Part shown: one piece after another, positions 110 to 20,121 of the stretch
Position numbering within the stretch: position 1 is the first letter of the stretch
How the letters are laid out: each line of letters opens with the position of its first letter
NCBI GenBank assembly: GCA_030950085.1
Contig: JAUZRW010000088.1
Span: 1-32,175 of the forward strand
DNA from: Anaerolineae bacterium
Lineage (GTDB): Bacteria; Chloroflexota; Anaerolineae; Aggregatilineales; Phototrophicaceae
DNA length: 32,175 bases
Reading direction: 5' to 3'
Made by a program: the position numbers and the translations under genes
Notes under the pieces: generated by a model
The model's database searches: none
What the model saw: only the letters and a program-made list of their open reading frames with translations
Told to the model about the DNA's origin: nothing

Positions 110-2407
110 TCAGAACGTAACCTCTTGCTCTAATTGTGGCATTTCCCAGATGTCAATCGGAGCATCTACAAACGACAGTCGCCATGTCCGATAGGCTTCA
201 GATTGCCAGATGGGGTCGTTCTTGGAGTCGTATGCAGTTTTACGTCGTTTGCGTTTTGGGGGTGATTTGTATTGCGGTGAATTCAGCGCAAAGCCATTGA
301 TGCTGCGCCATGAGACTCGTGATGCCACTTTCATGAAACCGGCTGGATTGCGTAAGTCGCCCTTCTCGCGTAAATATTCCATGCGCCCCAATGCCTGACC
401 GACTGCTTTTCGTCCATATTTATCGACCAACTGCCGCGCTTCGATTTCTTGCAAATTGCCTGTTGCTTGATAAACTTTCTGCGCCAACCATTCATCGGTG
501 TCATCTGGCAATGGCTTTTTGTAATAACGGGTAGACCGTTTTGGCTGGGTTTTGGGTCGCTTCTGAGACGCTGCTTTTACAATATGTTGTGGTAAAAGCA
601 CACTGTCGTTTACAAGCACATCTGATTGAATCGGCATCGTTTGAGTCGGAATAATCACGGCATCTACAGGATAATCCGGTTTAAGAAACAGTCCTTCCTT
701 CGTAGGTGATTCCACACTTTGCTCTACCTGTATTTTGGGTAATGGCTCACGCTCATACCAGTACATTTTGAGACCTCGTTTTATGAGCCAGACTCCATGA
801 TGCTGTTTCAGCAACTTTTTGGCGATTTCCGACTTAGGTGGATAACGTTTGCCACGTTCATCTTGTAAGAAATAGGGTTGTATATCGAAGCCAGCACGCT
901 TCGCTGTATAAGCCGTGGGAATCTGGTTGACATTGCCCCAATCAATGCGCGTTTCTTCTAGTAACTGCCTCGATTGGATATTCTCGCGCTTCAAATAGCG
1001 TTGTATTGTGCGCGAAGATACACTGAGCCGATTGCCAAGCCAAGTCTGCGAATACTTGCCCGGACGACGCTTGATGACTTCGCGGTTGAGTGCCGCACGG
1101 TATATCGCTGGTGACTGAATATCTTCTACTGTAATCGGGTCTGCGCCCCTATTGTCGATATTCAATCGCTGACACAGCATCATTATGTCAGGAATAAGGT
1201 ATCGTCTCGGTGGTCGTCCCTGAGTTTTGTCACCTGCCGTCGTCTGTACAAAAACGCATTTTTTTGTAGCACTAGCAGGTAGTGCTAAATCAGCATCAGC
1301 ATGGGGTGGGTTTCTAAGGGCGGGGGTAATCGAAAATTTTAGAGCTTTTCGTACCGACGGACGACCGACACCATACGGCGATAGAACCGCCAACGCTTCG
1401 CGCTCTGTGATTGTATCTCTCGCTAATTTGCCATTGAGCAACAATCCCTCATACACGCGCAAGAATGCTGCACCATCAGCCGCTTTCAAAATAGCCTCAC
1501 GCAACGCATTGGGAACATAACTGGCAGTTGCTCGTTTGGTCGTTCGCTGTTTTTTGGGACGCGGCGGCTTGCTGAAAACGCTTCGGATACTTCGTTCAGC
1601 CTCTGCATGACGCTGATTGTATCGCTCCGCTTTATGTTGATGGGTCGGTTGCTGATTAGCATGAATACTCGCAAGGACAGCGATGACATCCGCTAAGCTA
1701 TAGCCTTCGTCACGCATCGTGCATCCAGTACGAAACAGGGCTTCGTTGCGGCTGTCGACTTCATTCACAAGATACTGATAAATGCGAAGGAAATCATCTG
1801 GTGACTTTGCATCAGCAGCAGGTTGAGACAATCCTATTGAGATTGTTTGTTGAATGCCGAATTCCAATAAAAATTCATTCAACCCGGATTCTGAAACCTG
1901 ATACAAAGGCGCATCTTTGACCACTTGCCACATCCGACCTGCAATCTGTGAACCTGCGCCAACGACATAGCTCCCTTCTGCTTTAAGATCGCCTCCGTGT
2001 AGTTTGCAGGTTTTTACTGGAAAATCTACTTGCAAGTAGATATGGAGTGTTCGCCGTAGACCCGACTGAACAATTCGAGTATTCATGAGCTGCGGATAGC
2101 GCCGGATAAATTCTGCTTGTGCTTGCTCTTCATCGAAGTCAATAACAATCAGCTTCGATATTTCCCCACAAACGACACCATAGGCTGTGCATTCTTCTGC
2201 GAACCATATTTCAATTTGCCGTTCAGTCGCTTGCTGCTGCTGATACTTTTTCCACGCCACCCGCGGACGCTTGCCACCTGTCGAATTTCCCCCACCGAGC
2301 AGGGGAATAATCGACCATCCGCGCTGCTGGGCATCTAACGCAGATGAAAGAATATTCAGTTCGTCGTTTAGGCGCGTTGAATACAACTCAGCCTGCACTG
2401 AAGTCAT
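110..2407 (-). CDS. Prim-pol domain replication primase/polymerase
   Basis: This 765-residue protein begins with a bifunctional DNA primase/polymerase (prim-pol, archaeo-eukaryotic primase-like) domain at about residues 16-185. Visible signatures are a GW..IPL start (30-35), the metal-binding D90-F-D92 motif, a conserved histidine at 122 and a later acidic residue D140 followed by GSYVVGAGS. These match the known layout of catalytic residues in plasmid prim-pol enzymes. The middle carries a helix-turn-helix-like stretch (about residues 455-485, with SSRTIQRYLK) that could bind an origin. The C-terminal half is basic and not recognised. No helicase P-loop was seen, so a host helicase would be needed. 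The start has a good ribosome site (AGGTGA). The gene follows parA-parB on the same strand, which suggests replication initiation of a plasmid or integrated element. Confidence is high for the domain and lower for the role. Confidence 0.85.
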   Translation of the reverse strand: MTSVQAELYSTRLNDELNILSSALDAQQRGWSIIPLLGGGNSTGGKRPRVAWKKYQQQQATERQIEIWFAEECTAYGVVCGEISKLIVIDFDEEQAQAEFIRRYPQLMNTRIVQSGLRRTLHIYLQVDFPVKTCKLHGGDLKAEGSYVVGAGSQIAGRMWQVVKDAPLYQVSESGLNEFLLEFGIQQTISIGLSQPAADAKSPDDFLRIYQYLVNEVDSRNEALFRTGCTMRDEGYSLADVIAVLASIHANQQPTHQHKAERYNQRHAEAERSIRSVFSKPPRPKKQRTTKRATASYVPNALREAILKAADGAAFLRVYEGLLLNGKLARDTITEREALAVLSPYGVGRPSVRKALKFSITPALRNPPHADADLALPASATKKCVFVQTTAGDKTQGRPPRRYLIPDIMMLCQRLNIDNRGADPITVEDIQSPAIYRAALNREVIKRRPGKYSQTWLGNRLSVSSRTIQRYLKRENIQSRQLLEETRIDWGNVNQIPTAYTAKRAGFDIQPYFLQDERGKRYPPKSEIAKKLLKQHHGVWLIKRGLKMYWYEREPLPKIQVEQSVESPTKEGLFLKPDYPVDAVIIPTQTMPIQSDVLVNDSVLLPQHIVKAASQKRPKTQPKRSTRYYKKPLPDDTDEWLAQKVYQATGNLQEIEARQLVDKYGRKAVGQALGRMEYLREKGDLRNPAGFMKVASRVSWRSINGFALNSPQYKSPPKRKRRKTAYDSKNDPIWQSEAYRTWRLSFVDAPIDIWEMPQLEQEVTF

Positions 2408-2609: not shown

Positions 2610-2635
2610 CCAAAAAAGGTCAACATGTGTTGACC
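2610..2635 (-). terminator. Intrinsic terminator of parAB (palindrome 2618-2635)
   Basis: Directly after the parB stop, an 8-bp-arm palindrome (GGTCAACA, 2-base centre, TGTTGACC) is followed on the minus strand by TTTTTT. This is the form of a Rho-independent terminator and would separate parAB from the primase gene. The same near-perfect 18-bp palindrome beside parB also has the look of a ParB binding site, and the sequence cannot tell the two roles apart. Confidence 0.65.
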
Positions 2636-3828
2636 TATCTGATATTTGTGAGTGCTTCTCTTGCTTTTTTGATGAAATCCTCAAAGCGATTTAAATAGGC
2701 TAGAGCCATATGAATATCACCTTGCTGTTTCACGATGGTATGAGCAAAATCAACGGGATTCTGTTTCTCAATCGTCTTAATTGCTGTCCGTGTAAATTTG
2801 GCTAATGGCGATTCCAGTTTAGTGTCTTCCTCATTAGGTATTTTAGTTTGATGAAGGATTGCTTTGACTTGCCGTCCTGAAAGCCCAAGCTGAATGATTT
2901 GCTGTAACATTTCAATATGAACTTCCGTTGGCAAATCTACAACATAGTGAAGAACACCCTCATCCAAGCCATGTCTGTCGGCTAATTCCCATGCTTCGTC
3001 TGACAGTAGAAGTAATTTCTTGTATTGATTCAATCGCTGCTTGGTTACACCACCCATCGCCGAAAGAATCGATTCCGTAAACTCTCGTTTGCCACGCAAA
3101 TCGAGTTCTAATGCTTGACGGTAAAAATCGTTGGTGACAGCTTCGTTGGGAATCTCACATCCATGTACCGTAAGTAATAACAGAGCAGCTTGCCGTGCCA
3201 TGGCAATCGCATTAAGCCCTTTCCGCGCTGTATTCTCTTTCGCTTGACGAAATGCTGAAGCACGTTCAGCAGGAATAACAATGCAGTCAATCATCCCATC
3301 ACTTTCGTAACCGGAGATGAAATTGCGCAGTAACCACGCTGCCCAATAACGGCGTTCGCCTGTTTCAATACGATAAAGTCGTGTCACACCTTGCGAAATA
3401 TCTACGACTGTCAATGGATTAACTTGCCCATCATCTCGAATAGTGATTGCCAGATTTACAAGGTCGCGTAGAATGTTTTCTTCGGGTGAGAGTTTGTCGG
3501 TTATCTCTTGGTCGCTTTCAGCATTAGGCAGTAATTCAAGTACATTAGCGAATGGGCGACCTTGCTGCCGTGCAGAAACTTGTGCAACCTGTACTAACTC
3601 TCTCAATGCCTGTGTTGGCGTGAGGCGGTTGTTGTGGAATTTGTGATGCAATTGCTCTGACAGCACACGACGCGGCTGAACTGGGTCGGGACGTACCATC
3701 TCCAACAAAATACGTTCTACTTTGATATGGTTGTCATTGAAATACTGCGGCAGGTCATCGCCGAGCATATCGTCCGTCACAGATGCCAGAAGCGCATCCA
3801 ACTTTTCTGTATCGTTAATTTTGCTCAT
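2635..3828 (-). CDS. parB: ParB-family partition protein with an inserted segment
   Basis: This 397-residue protein has the ParB N-terminal CTP-binding fold: an entry motif with P50-V-Q-P-R (about 47-54), a G-Q-V-N-P-L segment (134-139) and the GERRYWAA box (157-164). About 80 residues lie between the QPR motif and the VNPL segment, where most ParB proteins have about 15-20, so the domain carries an insertion. A helix-turn-helix DNA-binding region follows (GGVTKQRLNQYKKLL, about 255-275). ParB would load on a centromere-like site and activate the ParA ATPase for segregation. Its ribosome site GGAGGTG lies inside the end of parA and its ATG overlaps the parA stop as ATGA, so the two are translationally coupled. 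Confidence 0.85.
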   Translation of the reverse strand: MSKINDTEKLDALLASVTDDMLGDDLPQYFNDNHIKVERILLEMVRPDPVQPRRVLSEQLHHKFHNNRLTPTQALRELVQVAQVSARQQGRPFANVLELLPNAESDQEITDKLSPEENILRDLVNLAITIRDDGQVNPLTVVDISQGVTRLYRIETGERRYWAAWLLRNFISGYESDGMIDCIVIPAERASAFRQAKENTARKGLNAIAMARQAALLLLTVHGCEIPNEAVTNDFYRQALELDLRGKREFTESILSAMGGVTKQRLNQYKKLLLLSDEAWELADRHGLDEGVLHYVVDLPTEVHIEMLQQIIQLGLSGRQVKAILHQTKIPNEEDTKLESPLAKFTRTAIKTIEKQNPVDFAHTIVKQQGDIHMALAYLNRFEDFIKKAREALTNIR

Positions 3829-4646
3829 TGCACACCTCCCAAGTGCTTCACAAGTCGCCCGACCAATTGTGCATAGGCTTTGCTGGCAGAGGCTTTTGGG
3901 TCATAAGCAAAGATACTGCGGTGGCTGCGATGGGCATAAGACACAGCTTCATTCATTGGAATAACACCAATGAGCAATTTGCCGAGCATTGGATGACCTC
4001 TAAGTTCATTGAGCAGATGGCGATGTCCACGTACTCGCTTATCCATCTTTGTGACCAGCAGACCGCTCACCCGTAGATTCTGAATGCGCCAGCCTTCTCG
4101 TATCTCATTGATTTTGCCGATAACGCTCAATAGACCAACCGTTTCCAGATAACGCGGTTCAACCGGAACAATCGCGTCTGTGGAAGAAATCAGTGCCATT
4201 TCGGTCATCAGTGAAAATGAGGGGCGTGTATCAATAACAACCGCAGCATAGTGTGGCGCAATCTTCGCCAGTGGGTCAGCCAGTCGATAAGGCGCACCTG
4301 CCGTTCCCTGTAATTCACGTTCTGCTTGTTCTAGCAGGGGAGAGGCAGGTAACACATGCAGATTTTCATCCCATTTGGATGTCACGATACAGTTTGCCAA
4401 GACTTGCGATGCAGTCTGACGGTCTGCCATCAGCACAGTGTAGAGGCTGTCATCTGTACCATAGTCATTGCGACCTGTCGTAACAAGTGTGGCATGAGCT
4501 TGGCTGTCCGTGTCTATCAGCAACACTCGCGGATTTGGTGCGTTAGCGTTACGTAGTATACCAACAATCCCTAGTGCAATATTCGTTGCCGACGTAGATT
4601 TACCCACGCCGCCCTTATGATTAGTGAGTGCGAAAATGCGTGTCAT
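3825..4646 (-). CDS. parA: ParA-family partition ATPase
   Basis: This 273-residue protein is a deviant-Walker ParA/MinD-type ATPase. The P-loop KGGVGKST is at residues 11-18, with the signature lysine at 11. The acidic switch segment reads VVIDTRPSFS, and a VPVEP strand follows, all in the usual order. It lacks an N-terminal DNA-binding extension, so it is of the short ParA type. It would bind DNA non-specifically as an ATP dimer and move ParB-bound DNA. It is first in an operon with parB. A strong GGAGGA ribosome site precedes the ATG, and a plausible promoter (TATTCA at 4678-4673) leaves a leader of about 20 bases. Together with the prim-pol gene, this points to a plasmid-derived maintenance module. 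Confidence 0.92.
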   Translation of the reverse strand: MTRIFALTNHKGGVGKSTSATNIALGIVGILRNANAPNPRVLLIDTDSQAHATLVTTGRNDYGTDDSLYTVLMADRQTASQVLANCIVTSKWDENLHVLPASPLLEQAERELQGTAGAPYRLADPLAKIAPHYAAVVIDTRPSFSLMTEMALISSTDAIVPVEPRYLETVGLLSVIGKINEIREGWRIQNLRVSGLLVTKMDKRVRGHRHLLNELRGHPMLGKLLIGVIPMNEAVSYAHRSHRSIFAYDPKASASKAYAQLVGRLVKHLGGVQ

Positions 4647-4709
4647 TTTGTCTATTTCCTCCGCAAATCAGTTGAATAGAATCAGCAATTCTTGTGCAAA
4701 ACCAAGCAT

Positions 4710-4971
4710 TGGCAGTTTCGTGCTAGACTGTGTGCGAGAGTGCCGTCGCCTCCGCAACGGTGCTTCGCAGTTGCAGGGGGAGTCACGGCTCTTCCTGCTC
4801 ACTGCCATCACCTGTGTCAAAACGAATTTGCGAGCCGCTCGATATAAGCGTGCTGAGGAAATGTTAGTTGATGAAAGAAATTTGCGGAATTTGAAGGGGG
4901 AAAATGTTCGGAATAGGTCTTATCGGGTTCACCAAAAGATAAGCCCATGCAAATTCTGTATGGGCTTTTTT
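4710..4971 (+). ncRNA. Structured RNA candidate divergent from parA, ending at a terminator
   Basis: The plus strand can fold into a three-way junction. P1 is 7 bp (TGGCAGT at 4710-4716 with ACTGCCA at 4801-4807). P2 is 13 bp with one bulged G (4733-4746 with 4757-4769), displaying the loop CGCCTCCGCA. P3 is 10 bp (4773-4782 with 4789-4798) around TCACGG. P2 and P3 each hold G-U pairs that become A-C mismatches on the other strand, so the RNA should be plus-strand. The P2 loop and stem start contain CCTCCGCAA, the exact complement of the parA ribosome site region TTGCGGAGG. A terminator follows at 4941. No clear promoter was seen. An open frame across this stretch has no recognisable product. 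It matches no riboswitch, SRP, tmRNA or RNase P motif known to me. Confidence 0.5.
4941..4971 (+). terminator. Intrinsic terminator, plus strand
   Basis: An 8-bp stem (AAGCCCAT with ATGGGCTT), an 11-base loop and a run of T residues form a standard Rho-independent terminator. Because no convincing protein gene lies upstream on this strand, it supports a non-coding transcript from the parA leader region. The opposite strand lacks a comparable T tail. Confidence 0.7.
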
Positions 4972-5060
4972 GCTAATAAACTTCTATACGATAACACTAT
5001 CTGATGACAGGATGCGACAATGTTGGTGGTGTTTTCTCAGACACAGACGGCGATTCGCGT

Positions 5061-5096
5061 TATAATGAGTTTAGGTTATCCAAATCATTATGGGGA
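5061..5096 (+). promoter_or_regulatory. -10 box and ribosome site deciding the start at 5103
   Basis: A perfect TATAAT at 5061-5066 predicts transcription from about 5073, and GGGGA at 5092-5096 sits 6 bases before the ATG at 5103. The upstream in-frame ATG at 5004 would lie before the promoter, so 5103 is preferred. The -35 region is weak. Confidence 0.5.
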
Positions 5097-5102
5097 AATA
5101 TT

Positions 5103-5483: not shown

Positions 5484-5499
5484 CTCTACAATGCCAGTT

Positions 5500-5779
5500 T
5501 GTAGGGGGTGTCTCAGGCGCTCCCAAAATTCCCTAAATGGGCAGGTCTCAGACCGCGTCCCTACGACACAGTTTTTATAGGCGGCTTGGTGTTTTTCGGC
5601 GGACAACATGTAAGCTGTCCCTACAAATGACTCTTTTTGACCTGTAGGGACGTGATATATATCACGTCTGCTGTAATCGGGTATCTATTCAGCTATTCGT
5701 GAGATTTCTTCGGACAGGCAGAAGCCTGTCCCTACAAAATAATGATTTTTGAACCGTAGGGACGTGATTTTTCACGTCC
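5500..5779. repeat. Cluster of GTAGGGAC palindromic repeat units
   Basis: This otherwise empty 383-bp gap holds three related units. The best two have the order hairpin, CCCTACAAA, short spacer, GTAGGGAC, hairpin. Clear arms are GGACAGGC-AGAA-GCCTGTCC (5712-5731), CGTGATATATATCACG (5651-5666) and GGACGTGA-TTTT-TCACGTCC (5760-5779). The first unit (5500-5564) keeps only the outer GTAGGG...CCCTAC ends. Related units occur at 14688-14756, 22395-22418 and 31968-32046, always outside genes. No protein is encoded, so these are small non-autonomous or REP-like elements. Confidence 0.75.
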
Positions 5780-5866
5780 GCGATAACACAAGTTCATGGA
5801 TAGGTGAACTGTTACGTAATCGGAAATATCAACAAGATTTGAATCTGTGGTTCACTGAAATTATGG

Positions 5867-7150
5867 CTAACAACTACCACCGCCCAGCACATAATCACGT
5901 TGGTCGGCATTGTTGTTTTCATTGGTTTCTGTCACGAGATTATCGGGGTCAATACGAAAACGCGATGTATGACCTTCAAATACATTGGTAAAAACGGTCA
6001 AATACAAAGTGACAGTTTGGCTTTGACCGGGCGCGAGGCTGCCAATATTTGCTTCTGTTTGTGCGCCGACTGCCCCATTGAACAAGTCTTCAACCACGAT
6101 ACGGGTGGCTTCACTATTGCCTGTGCCACTATTGGATACAGTAATCATAATCTCCGATGCGTTACCACATTCAAATTCCGGCACTGTCGATGACGAGACA
6201 ATGCTCAAATCGGCAACTGCCACCGGAGTCGCCGTCGAAACAGGTGTCGGTGTAAATGGAACAGGTGTTGGGGGACCCGATTCAACGGGGATAGTTGCTA
6301 TATCGCCAATGACTTCGACAGTATCCGCAAAAATCCAACCTTCACCATTATAGTAACGAATCTTATACCATTGACCACTCGGATGCCGCGCTAATAAATC
6401 TTCAACAGCCCCCGCAGCGAGACTCCCGATGGGCGGCTGAAAATTTGTGCCAGCCCCACTGCGAATATTCGCACCTGTCACGACTCGGATTTGTGGGCGT
6501 GATGGCGTATCTGTTGCAGGCACAGTCGTCGGTGGCGGTGGGTCAGTTGCTTCAGGCGGATTTGTCGCTACTACCGTATTCGTGGGGGCAATCGTTGTTG
6601 GTTGGTCTTGGACTATTTGTGTATCTCCTGTTGTGGTTGGAGGTACTTGGGTTGGCGGTATTGTATTAGTCGTTGTCTGATTATCCGTTGTGCTTTGGCT
6701 GCCCGTGCTGCTTTGGGGAGCCGCAACGATATTAATCGGCACTTGGACAGGATTACTGGATGTCCCATCATTACGAGAGGCGACAGCATCAATCGTATGC
6801 GCCCCAACTCCGATTGCTGTCCAGCTATTGGTCACAACAAAACTCGGTGCGCCCCCAGAATTCGGCACAAGAGCTTCGCCGATAATTTGCCCATCTAGTT
6901 TAATGACGACACGGGCAATATCAGGACCCGCATTTTCCACACGAACAAGGATATTGACTCCCACCCCTTCATAATAGCTGTCATTGGGTTGTGGAGCAGC
7001 AATGCTGACGACAGGCACACCCTCATAAATCGGTTGCGTCTCTTCTTCTGGTTGAGCAATCAAGGAACACGCAGAAACAGCGAAACTAGCTAGTAACAAT
7101 AAGACAAGCAAGCGCCAGCGTGGGGATTTTTGTATAATAAGTCGTCGCAT
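5867..7150 (-). CDS. Lipoprotein with Ig-like, SH3b and CARDB domains
   Basis: The start at 7150 gives 427 residues and has AGGAG 11 bases upstream; a longer frame to 7177 has no ribosome site. A basic, then hydrophobic N-terminus ends in the lipobox V-S-A-C28, so the mature protein should be lipid-anchored on the outer face of the membrane. An Ig-like segment follows (about 45-140), then a Thr/Pro/Gln-rich linker, then a bacterial SH3 domain (ANIRSGAGTNF...WYKIRY...GWI), another TPTP linker, and a C-terminal CARDB-like beta domain. That last domain has the typical ...DPDNLVTETNENNN ending. SH3b domains often bind cell-wall peptides, so a wall-associated role is likely. The substrate is unknown. 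Confidence 0.8.
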   Translation of the reverse strand: MRRLIIQKSPRWRLLVLLLLASFAVSACSLIAQPEEETQPIYEGVPVVSIAAPQPNDSYYEGVGVNILVRVENAGPDIARVVIKLDGQIIGEALVPNSGGAPSFVVTNSWTAIGVGAHTIDAVASRNDGTSSNPVQVPINIVAAPQSSTGSQSTTDNQTTTNTIPPTQVPPTTTGDTQIVQDQPTTIAPTNTVVATNPPEATDPPPPTTVPATDTPSRPQIRVVTGANIRSGAGTNFQPPIGSLAAGAVEDLLARHPSGQWYKIRYYNGEGWIFADTVEVIGDIATIPVESGPPTPVPFTPTPVSTATPVAVADLSIVSSSTVPEFECGNASEIMITVSNSGTGNSEATRIVVEDLFNGAVGAQTEANIGSLAPGQSQTVTLYLTVFTNVFEGHTSRFRIDPDNLVTETNENNNADQRDYVLGGGSC

Positions 7151-18617: not shown

Positions 18618-19601
18618 ATGGAATTCATCAACAAAATATTACAAGGTGATTGTCGTGATGTCCTTAAGAATATTCCGGATGAATCAATCTCAGCTTGTAT
18701 TACAGACCCTCCATACAATTATGAATTCATCGGACATACGTGGGATGATGACGAAATTAAACGTCGTATTCAGAGAGTACAAGACAGCAATACATTAGTG
18801 AAAAATATTCCCTATGGTAGTGGATTGGCTGGCGGCGTTCGCAATGAGAATTGGTATAGTCGGGTAAGACAAAACATTCTCGACTATGGAGATTGGTGTT
18901 ATGAATGGGGTCAAGAGGCTTATAGAGTTTTGAAGCCCGGCGGCATTATCGCTGTTTTCAATAGTACTCGGACAATGGCTCATGTCCAAATTGCGCTTGA
19001 ACGAGCAGGATTTTATGCTAGAGATTGTATTGTATACCGTCGTCATAGTGGTATACCAAAAGGGCTTAACCTAAAATCTCAATTAAAAAGAAGAGACTAC
19101 GCAGATTATGAAGCATGGGATGGCTGGCATAGTTGTTTGCGTAATGAATGGGAGGCTATTGTCATCTTACAGAAGCCTCTGCAAAACAATTACATCAACA
19201 CCTTTCTAAAATATGATGTGGGGTTGTTTTATACTCAGAATGAAGATGGCTCTTTCCAGTCGAATATCATTGAAAATATACCCCGTGAGAAAAATACTGA
19301 TTTTAATGTGCATTGTACCGTGAAGCCTTTAGCCTTAATGGAAAAACTGGTACAAATGTTTGTTCCGCCATCTGATAAACATATTGTCCTTGACCCTTTT
19401 GCTGGTTCTGGAACAACCTTATTAGCCGCACGGAATCTCGGAAGAAGTTTTGTTGGGATAGAGATTGTTTCTGATTATATTGAAATCATAGAACAACGGT
19501 TAAGTGCAAAGAAATTTGATGATAGCTTGCGACCAGTAAGCGAGGATGATTTAGACACAAATCCTAACGATCAACCGTATAATCTCCCTTTATTTGACTG
19601 A
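18618..19601 (+). CDS. Type II site-specific DNA methyltransferase (N6-adenine or N4-cytosine)
   Basis: The 327-residue protein has catalytic motif IV D30-P-P-Y33 near its start, a target-recognition region in the middle, and AdoMet-binding motif I DPFAGSGTT (259-267) near its end, so it is a beta-class amino-methyltransferase. TVKPLALMEKL at 234-244 precedes motif I as usual for this class. The region is more AT-rich than its neighbours, suggesting transfer. Its last 38 bases overlap the 3' end of a convergent gene with an endonuclease-like motif, so it probably protects DNA against that enzyme. The recognition sequence cannot be read from the protein. Confidence 0.9.
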   Translation: MEFINKILQGDCRDVLKNIPDESISACITDPPYNYEFIGHTWDDDEIKRRIQRVQDSNTLVKNIPYGSGLAGGVRNENWYSRVRQNILDYGDWCYEWGQEAYRVLKPGGIIAVFNSTRTMAHVQIALERAGFYARDCIVYRRHSGIPKGLNLKSQLKRRDYADYEAWDGWHSCLRNEWEAIVILQKPLQNNYINTFLKYDVGLFYTQNEDGSFQSNIIENIPREKNTDFNVHCTVKPLALMEKLVQMFVPPSDKHIVLDPFAGSGTTLLAARNLGRSFVGIEIVSDYIEIIEQRLSAKKFDDSLRPVSEDDLDTNPNDQPYNLPLFD

Positions 19602-20121
19602 GAAAAGTCTTTAAGTCAAAGCCAGATTGTTCTTTGATAAATTGAAAGGTTTCATTGCCAACCAATACTTGCCAAGTTCCCTTTTTGCAAGCGGATATGG
19701 CGGCTGGTAAATTATCTTCACGCAAAATAAGGAATACAGGTTCATAGCCTTTTTCTCGCAAAAGTGACCCGTAGGACTTAAACTTTTTCAGTGTTCCAGA
19801 ATCCCCTGAACCAATGCGATACTTTGTGTCTATAGCATACTGACCGACTACAAAGTCACAGGGTTCATCTTTTCCAAATCGCAGTGCTGCGCCAAAATCA
19901 CTTCTCGTCTCTTGGAATAATTTGGTAACAATCAATTGCCAGCACATCCCTAATTCCCGTCCCCAATATTGTCTATTTTCTCTTTTCAGGGCAGGTGTTA
20001 GCTTGAAAACTTCCATGAGAAGGTCATAATCATCATTCTCGTCATCATACACTTTAGCGGTAAGCGAATCTTGATATTGTTTCAAAATTGCATGTAGACC
20101 TTCGCTTAACTTGTTATCCAT
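19564..20121 (-). CDS. Candidate type II restriction endonuclease, PD-(D/E)XK-like
   Basis: A 185-residue protein with an AT-rich gene. A nuclease-like core reads D89-F-V-V-G-Q-Y-A-I-D98-T-K100, which fits the D...(D/E)XK metal site, followed by a basic YRIG segment. E56 in a preceding helix could complete the site. Small size, helical N-terminus and position tail-to-tail with a methyltransferase all match a type II enzyme. I cannot name a family with confidence; an ApaLI-like enzyme is one possibility. The ribosome site AAGGAG is about 12 bases upstream. If not an endonuclease, it could be another DNA-binding protein. Confidence 0.65.
   Translation of the reverse strand: MDNKLSEGLHAILKQYQDSLTAKVYDDENDDYDLLMEVFKLTPALKRENRQYWGRELGMCWQLIVTKLFQETRSDFGAALRFGKDEPCDFVVGQYAIDTKYRIGSGDSGTLKKFKSYGSLLREKGYEPVFLILREDNLPAAISACKKGTWQVLVGNETFQFIKEQSGFDLKTFLSQIKGDYTVDR

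Follow-up and report, generated by a model that had tools for sequence, protein, structure and literature searches.

A candidate structured RNA gene divergent from parA at the end of plasmid-like integrative elements in an order of Chloroflexota

C-rich motifs that bind ribosome sites are described for a number of small RNAs, namely RNAIII, RsaE, SprD, FsrA and LhrC (PMC4132741, in the excerpt available), while the control RNA of repABC replicons is an antisense RNA with repC as its target, encoded between repB and repC (PMC3155836, again in excerpt). Among the matches listed, open-licence titles and abstract openings describe no RNA of this kind next to parA, on tRNA-inserting elements or on elements of Anaerolineae, and the accessible parts of the open-licence literature, likewise among the matches listed, contain no description of the tRNA-inserting, plasmid-like element family treated here. 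The locus that is compared with these systems here lies on a stretch of 32,175 bases (the window), which is the entire contig C254 of an incomplete genome. Leftwards from 4646 it carries parA, then a ParB-like gene and then a Prim-Pol gene (as identified with Pfam; see the table), and no repC was found by Pfam among these three element genes. The parA product scores under the cut-offs of the NCBIfam ParA models. Elsewhere in the window, short interspersed repeats around GTAGGGACGTGAT and its inverse were noticed by eye in the intergenic stretch 5490-5790, and at 18618-20121 a DNA methylase gene (N6_N4_Mtase) is convergent with a 185-residue ORF without a Pfam match, which are possibly a restriction-modification pair.

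Features of the window around the candidate RNA gene, with strand and basis of assignment
Feature	Position	Strand	Basis
Bifunctional primase-polymerase gene	110..2407	-	Pfam Prim-Pol 1e-17
parB-like gene	2635..3828	-	ParB_N 2.3e-5, 24.8 bits vs gathering score 26.3
parA	3825..4646	-	Pfam AAA_31 7.1e-31
parA ribosome site, TTGCGGAGG on the minus strand	4658..4666	-	complement read on the plus strand
Extended -10 promoter element TG-n-TAGACT	4721..4729	+	conserved at homologous loci
Hairpin P1, loop ~4747-4756	4738..4765	+	11 alignment pairs, both sides changed in 7, 93.1% of cells paired, 58 distinct sequences
CCTCCGCAA, mostly in the P1 loop	4749..4757	+	9-base exact complement of the parA ribosome site
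Hairpin P2	4767..4805	+	15 alignment pairs, both sides changed in 12, 88.2% of cells paired
Hairpin P3 (tentative), conserved UGAGGAAA directly after (~4854-4861)	4833..4854	+	
Left attachment half-site and junction; TCACCA 4929-4934 = encoded 3' end of tRNA-Lys	4906..4934	+	boundary and inverted half-site at further loci; second half-site next to tRNA-Lys, contig C16
Host flank: probable displaced tRNA-Lys trailer and terminator (stem 4941-4967), here used by the RNA	4935..4971	+	inferred

Comparison between homologous loci shows a candidate gene, some 200 bases long, for a noncoding structured RNA on the plus strand, divergent from parA. The original prediction of a structured plus strand at 4710-4971 holds: its fold exceeds chance expectation (z -3.48, with 0 of 200 shuffles as good), the corresponding values for the minus strand being z -2.21 and 5 of 200. 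When 59 sequences (58 of them distinct) were aligned without structure, the tandem hairpins P1 and P2 had 90.3% of their cells paired, and the compensatory base changes looked for in homologues were present, both sides having changed in 19 of the 26 pairs; the covariation score of the two hairpins is 0.411 versus 0.261 in shuffles (0/500 as high), and sliding the pairing partner as a control lets the paired cells fall to 42-63%. Because G-U cells number 271 against 64 A-C cells (out of 1456 in the P1 and P2 alignment), the RNA strand is, by this comparison, the plus strand, which bears out the predicted strand preference of the G-U pairs. Ahead of P1, the promoter motif TGnTAnnnT occurs in 52 of 58 loci compared with ~1% in shuffles, and the transcript would start near 4736, i.e. 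downstream of the -10 element and not at 4710, where the RNA had been thought to begin.

The three-way junction that had been proposed for this RNA had to be abandoned: its closing 7-bp stem (TGGCAGT 4710-4716 with ACTGCCA 4801-4807) is fully paired in only one of 53 loci, the window itself, lies upstream of the -10 element, competes with the base of P2, and has 41.8% of its cells paired overall. As to P3, a stem of at least 5 pairs is found in 34/53 loci versus 27% in shuffles, which supports this hairpin weakly. The minimum-energy fold of 4736-4971, from the predicted start, contains both P1 and P2; in those of 4710-4971 and 4720-4931 P1 is absent and CCTCCGCAA is paired with TTGCGGA near 4881. 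Since P1 in the fold of the window thus depends on the chosen start, an alternative conformation, in which the loop pairs with TTGCGGA, is possible. Among the full-length RNAs, the minimum-energy fold contains P1 in 42 and P2 in 44 of 59. A conserved protein frame over the same bases was looked for as well and is not there: over the 3' part of the RNA the three frames stay open in 27, 16 and 25 loci, respectively, out of 57, and none does so consistently. A small protein encoded in the 3' half, which a few loci had suggested on inspection, is ruled out by this count.

Across the window, Rfam 15 gives no match at or above the gathering score, and a housekeeping RNA or riboswitch, of which no motif had been recognised beforehand either, is ruled out as the identity of the RNA. 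A relaxed Rfam search of window 4600-5100 and six homologous loci returned sub-threshold hits only; most of the nine weak ones in 4600-5100 fall on the terminator hairpin, and one (CcsR1, E 9.4) on P1-P2. A plain DNA search found relatives of the RNA in 5 of 61 genomes (own genome counted), and a pattern scan of the genome collection gave six stretches, i.e. three that were known already, two further loci (L010 and L011) and one Leptospiraceae match, the named relatives being Anaerolineae metagenome bins. The Leptospiraceae match (L009) is without parA and its surrounding sequence is unrelated; it was taken as chance and dropped. None of the viral contigs searched matched the RNA. With a first covariance model, built from six sequences, the RNA was found in 36/98 genomes of the same family, and with a second one, of the 5' half, in 42/154 genomes of the same order (17 of 61 genera, in four families), with up to nine matches within a single genome. 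A phylum-wide sample of 400 genomes, with nine candidates scored per genome shown, gave one, the window's own, and because of this the RNA family seems confined to one order of Chloroflexota, within the limits of fast filters. What is gained is a covariation-supported RNA family within that order.

For the counts, L072 and L121, which are absent from the 59-sequence alignment, were dropped beforehand, and L119, L094, L108 or L123 were also left out of some of them; these rows have either an RNA or flank that is truncated by the contig or an uncertain parA start. L011, which duplicates L070, was likewise removed. So was the second, convergent RNA copy in L084, where two copies meet tail to tail (6001-6213 and 6202-6407, with 79.1 and 28.6 bits). 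Two further loci are unusual: in L086 (6001-6265) the RNA is ~60 bases longer than in its relatives, the extra length being in the P3 region, and L074 (G027:3268861-3269063) has an altered RNA without parA, the 3' end of which converges on an intact tRNA-Arg.

The association with parA is close. Of the 83 parA genes of this family, 71 have the RNA within 250 bases and divergent, whereas 12 are without it, and in 56/61 loci a parA, intact or broken, starts divergently at a distance of 48-96 bases. All 36 genomes with such a parA carry the RNA, and two of the 38 RNA-bearing genomes are without a strong parA. At the level of single matches, 21/92 have no strong parA alongside, and several of these sit where a contig stops or next to a parA fragment. 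The promoter-like sites of the opposite strand occur here and there, with no clear position for a parA promoter.

The larger point, absent from the original prediction, is that the RNA forms one end of an integrative element. The conserved RNA block stops sharply, after which near-identical RNAs of the same genome run into different DNA (L068 and L069; L071 and L072). A half-site motif closes the RNA in nearly every locus listed; an inverted half-site completes it to a symmetric 48-base site in 14 of 58 loci, and single half-sites with differing flanks are found at other loci. In four loci (L097, L101, L113 and L116) a large serine recombinase gene is convergent on the RNA end, the product in L097 having a Resolvase domain (PF00239, 7.3e-21) followed by a Recombinase domain (PF07508, 1.5e-7). 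In the 30 recombinase loci obtained by searching the family, the 3' end of the recombinase gene abuts a tRNA gene in 23, the RNA in three and neither in four. RNA and recombinase also occur in the same genomes (33 with both, 5 with the RNA only, 4 with the recombinase only and 56 with neither; p 1.8e-16). A tRNA gene at the RNA end as a general rule was considered and rejected, as any tRNA is present there in 3/58 loci and the tRNAs are at the recombinase end instead. Comparison thus shows, as far as sequence can, that the 3' end of the RNA doubles as one half of the recombinase's attachment site, and that the RNA would sit at the end of a plasmid-like integrative element with ParA, a ParB-like protein, Prim-Pol and a large serine recombinase.

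In a genome consisting of one contig, tRNA-Lys (246,679-246,752) abuts a recombinase gene, a joined site is present at ~289,700 next to an RNA match that is weak (31.3 bits), and another RNA stops at ~435,770, ahead of a terminator; we read this as two elements in tandem in one tRNA. Two other arrangements were observed along the way. In about a dozen loci (G087:C44, G013:C40, G079:C337, C440, C325 and C197, G078:C237, C75 and C115, G085:C82, G082:C43 and G015:C16) a second recombinase match, covering residues ~4-301 only, lies 50-80 bases from a fuller serine recombinase match on the same strand, and these double matches may be paired or split recombinases. In L068, L081, L091, L092, L097, L100 and L107 an extra direct copy of the half-site follows a terminator-like hairpin just past the RNA end; such copies are perhaps scars of earlier insertions.

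In the window's own genome, a single match to such recombinases is present, on contig C16 (homologue 64% identical). The end of this recombinase gene reads into the half-site, after which an intact tRNA-Lys follows with its 3' end, TCACCA included, and the RNA end in the window reads the half-site, then TCACCA, then the hairpin terminator at 4941-4967. Joined by hand, the halves from the window and C16 give 48 bases, the same length as the intact sites, and C16 and C254 would be the two ends of one element. The two flank genes are not adjacent in relatives among the matches listed, and synteny thus yielded no empty site there. In other genomes, the closest counterparts of this tRNA-Lys gene often have a trailer with a hairpin and a T-run; a strict terminator test is passed by 6 of 22 such tRNA-Lys genes and by 26 of 57 RNA ends (31/57 fail it), compared with 0.7% in shuffled RNA flanks. 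Given the tRNA-Lys 3' end at the junction and the trailers of the tRNA-Lys relatives, the terminator in the window is most likely the displaced terminator of tRNA-Lys. The intrinsic terminator of the original prediction is therefore present as a terminator-like hairpin, but it was assigned to the wrong gene, since it lies past the element junction. This is a trap for the reading of other loci as well: the terminator found next to a new RNA may in fact come from a tRNA that has been displaced.

The loop that had been predicted to mask the parA ribosome site holds for part of the family. In the window the complementarity is exact over 9 bases, and in the window's clade the loop's longest exact match within the 25 bases that precede parA measures 5-11 bases and reaches 7 or more in 20 of 23 loci, while a match of at least 7 bases to the parA site is found in 0/32 of the remaining loci. 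CCUCC is present in the P1 loop in 23 of the 55 loci having both an aligned RNA and a parA leader (24/59 aligned loci overall), and in L080, L086 and L092 a loop CCUCCGU faces a parA site ACGGAGG. For other genes near the RNA, with the best of several starts taken per gene, a loop match of at least 7 bases occurs in 7/159, the longest being 11, 10 and 9 bases; in L092, for instance, a 10-base match precedes one alternative start of the gene that follows parB. When the leaders were reshuffled, 2 of 1000 arrangements (and 0 of 500 in a second run) were as good as the true pairs, figures that are inflated by relatedness, the covarying positions coming from few, related lineages. The mean loop-leader match is 7.30 for own pairs versus 6.86 for cross pairs, and CCUCC fits any strong ribosome site. 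Complementarity to the whole leader was not used, as that stretch also covers the complement of the RNA itself. For the loop of the other clade, the match to the parA leader is near -50 and weak (mean 6.1 bases versus 5.8 for cross pairs; 12/500 reshufflings as good). Because the match to the ribosome site is absent in 32/32 other loci, control of parA through this loop is, judged by complementarity, not the common function of the RNA family. From the proposal of a control RNA for a parA replicon, what is kept is a new, plus-strand structured candidate (with covariation, strand bias, a promoter and no reading frame), without the junction and, most likely, without a terminator of its own.

The best explanation, to which we would give an even chance, is an element-end RNA that is terminated past the attachment site and of which the P1 loop, in the window's clade, restrains parA. 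The layout strongly suggests that the RNA is terminated by whatever follows the attachment site: in the closed form a terminator on the recombinase side would end it, and in the integrated form, as in the window, the displaced tRNA terminator would do so. In the window's clade the C-rich P1 loop would pair with the parA ribosome site and lower ParA synthesis, and the ParA level would be set by the dose of the RNA gene; since the P1 loop of the other clade differs, the RNA there would have to act otherwise. Restraint of parA in the window's clade is thus a best guess at the mechanism and not a proven one. Because the 3' part of the RNA is an attachment half-site, recombination would also swap its tail, and the RNA could conceivably report the integration state, with one promoter giving rise to two RNAs that set parA differently per state. 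We regard this extension as quite unlikely; if it were true, partition of the free element would be set differently in the circle versus the integrated state. In any case, how such elements restrain their partition genes while integrated has become a testable question.

Other functions may account for the same observations. The RNA may control replication or incompatibility of the element, the variable P1 loop setting the specificity between co-resident copies, which would suit the up to nine RNA matches per genome, the plasmid-like gene content, and the P1 stem of the second clade, which is nearly constant around a variable loop. This is a possible but doubtful function, as no replication target was found, no antisense partner transcript is known, and the opposite-strand promoter-like sites are scattered. 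Instead of the RNA, the DNA itself could be what matters: the intergenic region between parA and the RNA would then be an operator or centromere bound by ParA or ParB, with the repeated CCTCCGC (GCTGGC in the other clade) and the P1-like motif in the parA leader as binding sites, and the RNA would be incidental. In the window, the loop sequence is indeed repeated directly, 91 bases away, by the complement of the ribosome site, and a DNA-binding protein could require such a repeat; in either clade the parA leaders, compared by eye, look like the 5' strand of P1 read in the same direction; and the type-2 loops show the above match to the leader near -50. Yet neither the helix covariation nor the excess of G-U over A-C cells, both of which need a folded plus strand, nor the conserved promoter of the RNA would be expected from a DNA site, and this reading is therefore unlikely.

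The closing of the RNA by the half-site motif at nearly every locus listed might finally mean that the structure serves recombination, either as an RNA or as a folded single strand that aids the recombinase or marks the excised state. Binding of the recombinase alone, however, accounts for the conservation of the half-site, and large serine integrases are not known to need an RNA, which makes such a role highly improbable.

With RNAIII, RsaE, SprD, FsrA and LhrC (as far as the available part of that source describes them) the RNA in the window's clade shares a C-rich hairpin loop that is complementary to the ribosome site of the target, and the sequence indeed has an unpaired C-rich motif complementary to a ribosome site (9 bases in the window). 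It differs from them in that the proposed target is the adjacent, divergent parA and that the RNA is on an integrative element; over half of the aligned loci are without the motif, and homology is not claimed. Like the repABC RNA, in the excerpt at hand, it is a small RNA in a replicon encoding ParA- and ParB-type proteins, but its place is upstream of parA, in divergent orientation, and no repC is seen. The element itself resembles the tRNA-integrating large serine recombinase elements in its Resolvase and Recombinase domains, its symmetric site of ~48 bases and its insertion at tRNA 3' ends, and it differs from these in having, at the other end, a structured RNA gene that seems to take over the displaced tRNA terminator.
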